Positions 31,685 through 63,965 of a stretch of 64,000 nucleotides of DNA are shown in pieces. Source of the DNA: Strigamia acuminata (taxonomy: Eukaryota; Arthropoda; Chilopoda; Geophilomorpha; Linotaeniidae); assembly GCA_949358305.1 (NCBI GenBank), contig OX442320.1, positions 10,680,259 through 10,744,258 on the forward strand, in the 5' to 3' direction. Numbering within the stretch: the stretch's first letter is position 1; every line of letters begins with the position of its first letter. A program made the position numbers and the translations under genes. The notes under the pieces were generated by a model that was not told the origin of the DNA, ran no database searches, and saw only the letters and a list, made by a program, of their open reading frames with translations.

Positions 31685-32067
31685 TTAACTCCGCTGCAAT
31701 TTCTCCAAGCAATAGGCCCTCTTTTTGTGTAATTTGGACAGAATGCCAAAAATATCGTCAAATGTTATGGATTTCGCATCCTTTTCTGTGGGTGGTTTAA
31801 TTTCAATATTCTTGTGCCGGATGTACTTGGCACCTTAGAAATCAAACAGGCAGTTGTTTTTTTGCTCTTCTGTTCCTCTCAGGGTTGATTAAATAATATT
31901 TTTGATCTGCTTTACGTGTACGAATGATGATCTTGGTTCGACCTGTTTTCACTAACTTCAATATTCGTTTTTCAAACATTAAAGCATCTTCACTGATTGT
32001 GATCAAAACTTTGGTGATATTCTTCAACACTGTTCTTTTTTTGCCCATGTTGGAAAACATGTTTAAG
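31685..32067 (-). CDS. Unknown family, further exons between the two blocks
   Basis: Exon 31,842-32,067 starts after TTTTCAG and reads LNMFSNMGKKRTVLKNITKV, then ALMFEKRILKLVKTGRTKII and YYLINPERNRRAKK before a stop. It loosely resembles the KYF...YFVDPRKK exon of copy B. A second frame, 31,685-31,833, gives IEIKPPTEKDAKSITFDDIF and ends LEKLQRS-stop; copy B keeps KPPTEKDPKAITFNDI near 37,290. How these join to the neighbouring exons is unclear. Confidence 0.35.
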
Positions 32068-42238: not shown

Positions 42239-42579
42239 CTGTGGGGAGATTGAGGATAAATGTTAGATCGGAGCGATTTAGGGTTAGAAATTGATTTTGG
42301 ATGGTTTTTACGACCTTTGAGACGGTTTTTCTGCGGTTTTTCTACATGATATGTTACGTAATGTTTGGGATCGGAGACACGGAGTAGTCTACTTGGGTGT
42401 TATTAAACGACGGCCATCTTGTGTGTTGTGATTGGTTGGTTGGAGAAGGAAGCTGGTTGGTTGGTTGGTGCGGGGTTTTGGCGCTAGGTGGTAGTTAGGT
42501 GGTAGCGGCCATGGTTTTGAAAGCGGGCTTGTAGTTTGCGTGGTTTAGTGTTTCGGTTTTTTCGATTTTTCGCGTCGAA
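42239..42579. promoter_or_regulatory. Divergent promoter of SOCS6/7 and NOP58
   Basis: The 340 bp between the two start codons contain an inverted CCAAT box (GATTGG, about 42,430) and two YY1-type words, ACGGCCATCTTG (about 42,410) and GCGGCCATGG (about 42,506). TTACGTAA occurs near 42,355. No TATA box is seen. The spacing supports a shared bidirectional promoter. Confidence 0.6.
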
Positions 42580-45500
42580 ATGTTGGTTTTATTCGAGACA
42601 GCGGCGGGATATGCTGTTTTTAAGGTTTGTGGTTGTTTTTTATGGGTGTTTTGGGTGGGTTTACGGGGAGGTTTGAGCGGGTTTGGGGGATTTTTGGTTA
42701 GGCCTATTTTGGTGGTACCACGTGTTGTGTATTGTATTTGATTTTTTTTTTCGTTTTTTTTTGCAGCTGTTGAATGAGAAGAAATTACAGAAGACTGATA
42801 ATCTGTACAAGGAATTCCAAACGCCCGCAGATGCCAGTAAAATGTAAGAAAAATCGTTTAAATCTTTGATTTTTGTCAAAATTTGTCCATTTTTTTGCGA
42901 ATTTTGTTGATTTTTTTGTCAAATATTGTCGATTTTTGTCAAATTTTTTCATTTTTGTCAAATTATTTCGGTTTTGTCATTTTTTTTCGATTTTTTTTGT
43001 CAAATTTTGTATTTTTGTCAAATTATTTCGGTTTTTGTCACTTTTTTTTCGATTTTTTTCTAATTTTTCTTTGTTTTTTCAGCATCAAAATGAAACATTT
43101 TGAAAAATTCAACGACATGACGGAAGCCCTAGCATGCACCACAGCAGGAATCGAAGGCAAAATGAACAAACGCCTGAAAAAAATGCTGAAAAAAGTCGTC
43201 TTAAAGGAACCTGGCGAGCAATTAGCCGTCGCCGACGCCAAACTAGGCAACATAATCAAGGTCAACCATCACAAAAAACCCCAAAACCTCCGATTCTAAC
43301 CATTCAACCACTCTTACAGGACAAACTCAACATCTCCTGCGTCTTCAACACACAAATCGCCGAACTAATGCGGTGTATTCGCTCGCAATTGGACAGTTTG
43401 GTGACCGGATTCCCACAAAAAGAAATGACCGCGATGGCTCTTGGTCTAGCACACAGGTACGCAACACAAAAATCGATTTTAATCGACTAAACTCAATTTT
43501 AATTCGATTTTTTCAGTTTATCGCGATACAAACTCAAATTCAGTCCCGATAAAGTGGACACGATGATCGTGCAAGCCGTGTGTACGTTTTATTTGTCGTT
43601 TTTTAACGTTTTAAATCGATTTTAGCCAATGATGCATGTAATTAATTTGATTATCACGTGATAAATATTAATTTACTATTCGTCACTACCTCTGAGGCTT
43701 TTTTGAACGTTTTTCTTGAGTTTTTCGACGTGGGATTTGGATTTTTGTTGATTGTTTGCGTGTTTTTGCAGCTTTGTTGCAAGATTTGGACAAGGAGTTG
43801 AATAATTACGTGATGCGGTGCAGGGAGTGGTACGGGTGGCATTTTCCGGAACTCGGGAAGATCGTGACGGATAGTTTGACTTATGCTAAGACGATTAAGG
43901 TTTTAGGTAAGTTGGTCGATTTGGTTTGTTGGTTTTTTGGGTTTGGTTTGTTTATTTGTGGTTTTTGTTGCAGGGATTCGAGAAAACGCTTCGAAAACTG
44001 ATTTAACCGATGTTGTGACGGAAGATATTGCGTCGAGTATCAAGGAACAGGCGGAAATATCAATGGGAACGGAGATATCGGTGGAAGATATTACAAATAT
44101 CGTGTTGTTATGCGATCAGGTAATTAATTTCGTATGTTGGTTTATGATTTTACGAAGATTTAACGATTTAAAGCGATTGAATTGACTATTTAAACTGTTT
44201 AATACTATTGATTTGATGTGTTTAATGGTCTAAAACGATTGATTTGATGTGTTTAATGGTCTAAAATGATTATTTTCATGATTTAAACGCTTTAAAACGA
44301 TTGAATTGACAATTTAAACTGTTTAAAACGATTGATTTTATTATTTAAATGCTTTAAAACGATTGAATTGACAATTTAAACTGTTTAAAACGATTGATTT
44401 TATTATTTAAATGTTTTAAAACGATTGAATTGACAATTTAAACGCTTTAGAACGATTGAATTGACAATTTAAACGCTTTAAAACGATTGAAATGACAATT
44501 TAAACGCTTTAAAATTATTGAATTGACAATTTAAACGCTTTAAAACGATTGAATTGACAATTTAAACGCTTTGAAACGATTTGAATTGACAATTTAAACG
44601 CTTTAGAACGATTGAATTGACAATTTAAACTGTTGAAAACGATTAATTTGATGTGTTTAATGGTCTAAAACGATTGATTTGATGATTTAAATGCTTTAGA
44701 ACGATTGAATTGACAATTTAAACTGTTTAAAACGATTGATTTTATTATTTAAATGCTCTAAAACGATCGTTTGGTGATTTAAATGCTTTAAAACGATTAT
44801 TTTGATGATTTAAATGCTTTAAAACGATTATTTTGATGATTTAAATGCTTTAAAACGATTATTTGTAGGTGATTGAAATGACGCAATACAGGAACCAGTT
44901 ATTCGAATATCTGAAGAACCGAATGTTGGCAATCGCGCCGAACCTGACCATCCTAGTGGGAGAACTGGTGGGCGCGAAACTAATCGCACACGCCGGCTCA
45001 CTTCTCAATCTTGCCAAACACCCGGCGTCGACCGTTCAAATATTAGGCGCCGAAAAAGCGCTGTTTCGTGCCATCAAAACGAAACACGCCACGCCCAAAT
45101 ACGGCATTCTTTACCACTCGCAACTCGTCGGTCAAGCCGGCGCCCAACTCAAAGGAAAAGTGAGTGAAACTCGTTTAAATTTAATTTAAATAAAAATTAA
45201 TTGAATTAAATTAATTTTGTTAGGTTGCGCGAATGTTAGCGGCCAAAGCGGCGCTCGCTTGCAGAGTCGATGCGTTGGCGGACGAAACGTCGACGGATGT
45301 GGGCCTCGAATCGATGGCCAAGCTGGAAACGAGAATAAAAATGCTCGAGGAAGGAACCGTGAGTTTAAAATCGACGAATTTTGTTGATTTTTGTCGTTTG
45401 TTTGACAATTTTCGACGTTTTTTTGTCAATTTTTGACGGGTTTTTGTCAATTTTTGACGTTTTTTGTCGTTTTTTTGTCAATTTTTGACGTTTTTTGTCA

Positions 45501-46065
45501 ATTTTTGACGTTTTTTTGTCAATTTTTGACGGCTTTTGACATTTTTGACGGTTTTTTGACGTTTTTTTGTCATTTTTGACGGTTTTTTGTCTATTTTGAC
45601 GGTTTTTTTGACGGTTTTTTGTCAATTTTTGACGTTTTTTGTATATTTTTCTCGTTTTTTGATTATTTTTCTCTTTTTTAGATGCGACGGGTGAGCGGGA
45701 CCGGGAAAATGAGAGCGAAAATGGAGAAATATGACTCTAAGAGTGAAATTCAACAATATTCGGCGGCGGCCGACGTGTCCCGGAAGCGGAAATTCGTGCA
45801 AGAAGTGGACGAAGGCGGGGACAGCGGTGCGCCCACGAAGAAAGCGAAGACGGAGTCGGGCGAGGGAAGCGCGCCCGCCAGTGAGAAGAAGAAGAAGAAA
45901 AAGAAGGCGAAATTGGTGGAGGAAGTTGTGGCAGAGAGTCCGAAGAAGAAGATGAAGGTGAAACCGGAAGTGGAGGCGGAAGAGGTGGCCGAAAGTGCGG
46001 TGAAACAGAAAAAGGGGAAGAAAAACGACGACAGTCCCAAGAAAAAGAAAAAGAAATCGAAATGA
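42580..46065 (+). CDS. NOP58: NOP58, box C/D snoRNP core protein, complete
   Basis: Core component of box C/D snoRNPs, which guide 2'-O-methylation and processing of rRNA in the nucleolus. Coding exons: 42,580-42,624; 42,767-42,843; 43,083-43,260; 43,320-43,456; 43,517-43,581; 43,772-43,906; 43,974-44,119; 44,869-45,159; 45,224-45,358; 45,682-46,065. Phases agree and give 530 aa, against 529 in human. It opens [15 protein letters not shown]. The coiled-coil and Nop domain carry [34 protein letters not shown], then [20 protein letters not shown] and [20 protein letters not shown]. The tail is a long Lys/Glu run with KKKKKK blocks, as in other animals. Intron 5 contains a C/D snoRNA. TGA at 46,063-46,065; no clear AATAAA follows. 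Confidence 0.96.
42870..43080. repeat. TTTTTGTCAAATTATTTCGG array in NOP58 intron 2
   Basis: Degenerate 15-30 bp T-rich units fill the intron. Confidence 0.75.
43624..43699 (+). ncRNA. Intronic C/D-box snoRNA targeting 18S rRNA
   Basis: A 76-nt element in a NOP58 intron has box C ATGATGC (43,629-43,635), box D CTGA (43,692-43,695) and a closing stem AGCC/GGCT on either side. A C'-like GTGATAA lies at 43,658. The 13 nt directly before box D, TTCGTCACTACCT, are the exact complement of the universally conserved 18S segment AGGTAGTGACGAA. Counting five nucleotides up from box D (T at 43,687) predicts methylation of the A in AGGTAGTGAC. Human NOP58 introns host SNORD11 and SNORD70, which to my recollection modify this same 18S stretch (G509 and A512). 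This is therefore the counterpart in the same host gene. Confidence 0.85.
44150..44860. repeat. AACGATTGAATTGACAATTT array in NOP58 intron 7
   Basis: More than twenty units of about 32 bp (AAACGCTTTAAAACGATTGA plus ATTGACAATTT) make up nearly the whole intron. Confidence 0.9.
45400..45660. repeat. TTTTTTGTCAATTTTTGACG array in NOP58 intron 9
   Basis: About twelve units of 19-21 bp; GTCAATTTTTGAC is itself an inverted repeat. Confidence 0.85.
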
Positions 46066-46493
46066 ATTCGTTTATATTTTGTCATTTAGTTTGTAGTTTA
46101 TTTTAATCGATTTGTTTCATCGTCATTGTAAAAATTGTTTCTTAATTAAAAAGGATCTAACGAATGAAAAGGGTTTTTATCGGTTTGTTTACATCCATTT
46201 TCGAGCTGCAATGGCGCTTTACGACTATCGCCATCTGGGGGGATGTTTCGGAAAGAACGACCACCTGCCGACCAATGGCAGCGGAGATATTTGGGGCACG
46301 TGAGTCGAACCGACCAATGAGGGAAGCCATTTCGGATTATGGGAAAATTGATAATGGCTGCCTGTGTAGTGCAGAAAACACCGAAGTAGACGTGGATATT
46401 TCGCTTAGAAATAGTCGTTTTTTCTTTGGTTTTTTCTTTTAAAAACCAGCATGGAGCTGCTGGATTTGAGCTAACAAGTGCGCGAAATGCGCC

Positions 46494-63965
<17,472 letters not shown>

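Follow-up and report, generated by a model that had tools for sequence, protein, structure and literature searches.

Intron 5 of the NOP58 gene of Strigamia acuminata contains a box C/D small nucleolar RNA (snoRNA) gene, at positions 43624-43699 of the 64,000-nucleotide stretch of DNA that we analysed (the window), which we assign with high confidence to SNORD70, as an orthologue or at least as a functional homologue. Judged by its letters, the RNA very probably marks one rRNA site, and the predicted target nucleotide is the equivalent of human A512 in 18S rRNA, the regular SNORD70 site. A SNORD70-family RNA hosted by NOP58 is also found in chicken NOP58, and the arrangement, as read from sequence, is an ordinary but deeply conserved one. 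The predicted RNA adds a new member to a known snoRNA family and has its host gene and its target in common with chicken.

Anatomy of the snoRNA gene

The element is 76 nt long and reads AGCC-A-ATGATGC ... TTCGTCACTACCT-CTGA-GGCT (Table 1). Its 13-nt guide abuts box D directly and matches the reverse complement of AGGTAGTGACGAA at every letter, the conserved 18S letters being those given in a previous, sequence-only reading of this DNA. That reading had described a box C, a box D, a closing stem and a 13-nt guide against a conserved 18S stretch, and each of these is borne out by the letters. Box D is a CUGA near the 3′-end, and box C agrees with RTGATGA at six of seven letters, the mismatch being the last base, at which the SNORD70 consensus in the Rfam alignment (AUGAUGU) likewise departs. 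The terminal stem joining the C and D boxes has 4 bp, and the same four pairs were recovered in the predicted fold, the energy of which does not stand out (z -0.89; of 200 shuffles, 33 fold equally well or better). The internal GTGATAA and TTGA, which may represent box C′ and a degenerate box D′, were picked by eye and carry one mismatch each.

Table 1. Features of the NOP58 region and its snoRNA, in window positions
Feature	Position	Strand	Basis and remarks
NOP58 gene, ten coding exons, 530 aa	42580..46065	+	Model by eye: splice signals, frame
NOP58 coding exons 1-5	42580-42624, 42767-42843, 43083-43260, 43320-43456, 43517-43581	+	
NOP58 coding exons 6-10	43772-43906, 43974-44119, 44869-45159, 45224-45358, 45682-46065	+	
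NOP58 intron 5, snoRNA host	43582..43771	+	190 nt, GTACGT...GCAG
Box C/D snoRNA gene, SNORD70 homologue	43624..43699	+	Rfam RF00575 match 43621-43707, model 1-89/89
Terminal stem, 5′ strand AGCC	43624..43627	+	Letters; pairs with GGCT 43696-43699
Box C ATGATGC	43629..43635	+	Letters; aligned to SNORD70 consensus AUGAUGU
Possible degenerate box D′ TTGA	43647..43650	+	Letters, by-eye assignment
Possible box C′ GTGATAA	43658..43664	+	Letters; its GUGAU aligned to SNORD70 GUGAU
Guide TTCGTCACTACCT	43679..43691	+	Complementary to 18S AGGTAGTGACGAA, human numbering 508-520; n+5 = A512
Box D CTGA	43692..43695	+	Letters
Terminal stem, 3′ strand GGCT	43696..43699	+	Letters
MIR395, MIR8706, H/ACA TtnuHACA13	Repeats of NOP58 intron 7		Weak Rfam matches (TtnuHACA13 E 1.8 and 8.4)
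Spd-sr37	NOP58 intron 9		Weak Rfam match, E 5
C/D family sR52	NOP58 last exon		Weak Rfam match, E 7.2

Family match and significance

A relaxed Rfam search of the 5,001 bases at 42,500-47,500 matched the element to SNORD70 (RF00575) over the full length of the model (1-89) at 43.0 bits, with an E-value of 2e-4, or 0.0025 when the whole window is searched. This is the top match in the 5-kb NOP58 region; other C/D families fall on the snoRNA with far weaker scores, among them SNORD24 (25.4 bits) and SNORD11B (22.0 bits, E 2.7). The Rfam gathering cut-off for SNORD70 is 50 bits, 7 bits above our match, which explains why a default Rfam scan misses the snoRNA and returned zero families at gathering score in the window. 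Because the gathering cut-off is a threshold set by curators and not a biological trait, a score below it moves the assignment down to that of a SNORD70 homologue without excluding it.

A score below the cut-off would also be compatible with a decayed or unexpressed copy of the snoRNA, as would a short stem of 4 bp and a box C that ends in C, not A. We regard such a pseudogene as very improbable, since the guide, the box C core and box D are all exact, the box C deviation sits where SNORD70 itself leaves the consensus, and this is the sole copy found genome-wide: a search with the 121-base snoRNA region returned only the region itself.

The alternative that intron sequence resembles a C/D snoRNA by chance gains some ground from the boxes themselves. 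Box C, box D and a 4-bp stem, taken without the guide, occur twice in the window and at a mean of 0.58 (maximum 2) in 60 shuffled windows, and this combination alone is weak evidence for a snoRNA. Against chance stands the 13-nt guide, which abuts box D within a NOP58 intron. The pattern TGATG-N25..55-TCACTACC-N1..2-CTGA has a single occurrence in the 237.5 Mb (157 contigs) of the genome and none in the reversed control, and the bare guide 13-mer is found once on both strands of the readable assembly, compared with 7+7 for its reversed control. With both strands counted, the shorter CACTACC-N0..2-CTGA occurs once in the window, and 60 dinucleotide shuffles together gave one occurrence. Moreover, the E-values are to the same family that is carried by chicken NOP58. 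Chance resemblance is thus the least credible of the alternatives that we weighed, and extremely so.

The other box C (ATGATGA) and box D (CTGA) pair of the window lies at 31924-31996 on the forward strand, with a stem of 4 bp, wobble pairs included, and with TTAAAGCATCTTCA as its upstream stretch. Rfam matched no family to it at E up to 2 in the 64-kb window and, since such pairs also arise in shuffles, it is probably due to chance.

The NOP58 host gene

All introns of the NOP58 model are GT-AG. The identity of the host gene, which had been named from the letters, was confirmed by the gene model, by the Pfam domains NOP5NT and Nop in its product and by the top solved-structure match, chain 7mq8_SB, Nucleolar protein 58 (E 1.9e-187); chain 7mq8_SA, Nucleolar protein 56, matched at 1.6e-91. 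We take 7mq8 to be a human structure. Removal of intron 5, a phase-1 intron in QAV|SLL, preserves the reading frame, and the protein letters that are joined are as in 7mq8_SB. A protein search scored 7,992 matches; among the 120 listed, those named by species are all from animals at 59-71% identity, mostly invertebrates (ticks, horseshoe crab, molluscs, insects) plus two fishes.

The snoRNA lies in sense within intron 5, separated by 42 nt from the 5′ splice site and by 72 nt from the 3′ splice site. For intronic C/D snoRNAs whose assembly accompanies splicing, a distance of ~70-80 nt to the 3′ splice site is typical, and by this general rule the position here favours splicing-dependent snoRNP assembly.

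Of the remaining introns, intron 7 is nearly all tandem array (44167-44865; 31-nt AT-rich unit, 22.6 copies, 82% matches). The Rfam search of 42,500-47,500 gave 16 matches with E up to 10, those outside the snoRNA being weak (Table 1). The miRNA and H/ACA matches in intron 7 are likely due to its repeats, and none of the weak families in the NOP58 region comes near its cut-off; they were taken as chance. A second tandem array lies at 55363-55840 (20-nt unit, 24.2 copies) and in part forms an open frame of 150 aa. The microRNA matches found at 55.5-55.8 kb fall inside this array on both strands at sub-cut-off scores and were set aside as artefacts.

Predicted target nucleotide and register

The human 18S letters named in PMC5612246 are G509, A512, T514 and C517, within a stretch in which the binding sites of snoRNAs 11, 56 and 70 overlap. 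To these letters AGGTAGTGAC fits as A508-C517, and the n+5 count, the fifth pair from box D, then falls on A512, three bases 3′ of G509. The sequence-only reading had instead placed the n+5 A one base before G509 and had suggested a shifted target. This does not hold on the letters of PMC5612246: A512 is the SNORD70 register, and there is therefore no target shift left to explain.

Chicken provides a comparison for both families, where we take HBII-234 to be SNORD70 and HBII-95 to be SNORD11. In the chicken snoRNA table (PMC2653536), introns 3 and 6 of NOP5/58 house the HBII-234 homologue GGgCD13, which is directed to 18S-A-473, and introns 8 and 9 house the HBII-95 homologue GGgCD12, which is directed to 18S-G-470. 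Chicken A473 and G470 are three nucleotides apart, as are 512 and 509. SNORD70 is presumably linked by name to A512, in agreement with the register computed here and with chicken A473. In addition, PMC4682413 mentions one small region whose annotation includes Nop58, Snord70 and RF00575.

These data bear on whether the RNA might direct modification of G509 in the manner of SNORD11, or be a guide that has shifted away from that site. SNORD11 (SNORD11B is RF01192) is likewise a C/D snoRNA that addresses an overlapping 18S stretch, and its chicken counterpart GGgCD12 is also housed in NOP5/58, by the table entries cited above; the element itself has the weak SNORD11B match. However, the SNORD70 model is ahead of SNORD11B by 21 bits, and n+5 falls on A512, three bases off the SNORD11 target G509 (chicken G470 in the same entries), which lies three nucleotides 5′. 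With 43.0 versus 22.0 bits and this register, the RNA is SNORD70-like rather than SNORD11-like, and we consider a G509 guide very unlikely. Of the label "SNORD11/SNORD70-like" under which the element had first been described, the SNORD70 part stands and the SNORD11 part falls.

A genome search with a SNORD11-like pattern listed three matches at two places, none of which contains CACTACCTCC, and a SNORD56-like pattern (for C517) gave zero matches in the genome. Both patterns are strict, so these counts do not establish the absence of those snoRNAs.

Comparison with known snoRNAs

The element and SNORD70 are both C/D snoRNAs with a guide AUUCGUCACUACC before box D, a box C AAUGAUG and a register on A512, and the NOP58 host is common to chicken in the entry for GGgCD13 (PMC2653536). 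They also differ in several respects. The RNA is shorter here, with 76 nt compared with 89 model positions and, in the same source, 95 nt in chicken; its terminal stem has 4 bp and the outer stem of the model is not formed; and the letter before box D is U, not A, so that the duplex with 18S gains a pair. One copy was found here, whereas the chicken entry has two isoforms, and the host is intron 5 here and introns 3 and 6 in that entry, which may or may not correspond. A further difference is the score, which stays under the 50-bit cut-off.

Plant snoR17 (RF01289) has a consensus, gUCACUACCU-CUGA-GGC, that coincides with the element in the final ten letters of the 13-nt guide, in box D and in the three letters that follow. 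Its own match is weak and covers another stretch (43654-43743, 22.8 bits, E 4.1). In PMC5122169, snoR17 is described as a recent gain of flowering plants, and the chicken table gives GGgCD13 no plant counterpart (PMC2653536). For these two reasons the resemblance to snoR17 is probably convergent.

The 18S rRNA of the species

A universal pattern for the 18S 3′-end was found at three places in the genome, two of them exact and one with a mismatch. Rfam recognized the 18S end and 5.8S in one of the three fetched stretches, the start of 5.8S in another and nothing in the third. Of the two loci with an 18S 3′-end, one reads N in the stretch ahead of that end and the other lacks this stretch because the contig begins there; the fetched stretches around these ends showed no copy of the target site. 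Because the assembly is partly unreadable, the missing target site is no evidence against pairing. A looser pattern for the site, with up to three mismatches, gave 610+679 genome matches, below its control (743+773), and the three places with a single mismatch held none of the other 18S motifs sought. The spacer between 18S and 5.8S (ITS1) measures ~1.2 kb in one locus (L014, 2716-3946) and ~1.0 kb in the other (L015, 223-1235); it holds a 215-nt tandem unit, the marker of which occurs four times in one locus and three times in the other.

Proposed pathway and implications

From these features we infer the following course of events. Splicing of the NOP58 pre-mRNA would release the intron-5 lariat, which would be debranched, and exonucleases would trim the intron to the C/D core bound by SNU13, NOP58, NOP56 and fibrillarin, so as to leave a stable RNA of about 76 nt. 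The guide beside box D would then pair with 13 nt of 18S rRNA, assuming that the 18S of this species has the conserved letters, and fibrillarin would add a 2′-O-methyl group at the fifth pair, on the 18S A that corresponds to human A512. NOP58 would in this manner carry the guide RNA of a particle that its own protein builds. We speculate that the nesting of SNORD70 in NOP58 predates the main bilaterian split and has been retained because the supply of a C/D core protein is thereby coupled to that of a C/D guide, for example through autoregulation in which snoRNP assembly competes with host-intron splicing, a proposal that in its entirety we hold to be rather unlikely.

No report of SNORD70 in an invertebrate NOP58 was found in the literature searched, the coverage of which was partial (including the available parts of PMC13228274, PMC8522698, PMC10234308, PMC4430873 and PMC12309372). 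The present finding extends a vertebrate snoRNA family to Strigamia acuminata, along with the host gene and the exact predicted target of that family, through a copy that goes unnoticed at the standard Rfam cut-off. We suggest a relaxed-score search of the introns of NOP58, and of NOP56, as a means to recover the guide across animals; such a survey would tell an inherited linkage of guide and host gene from one that was re-acquired.
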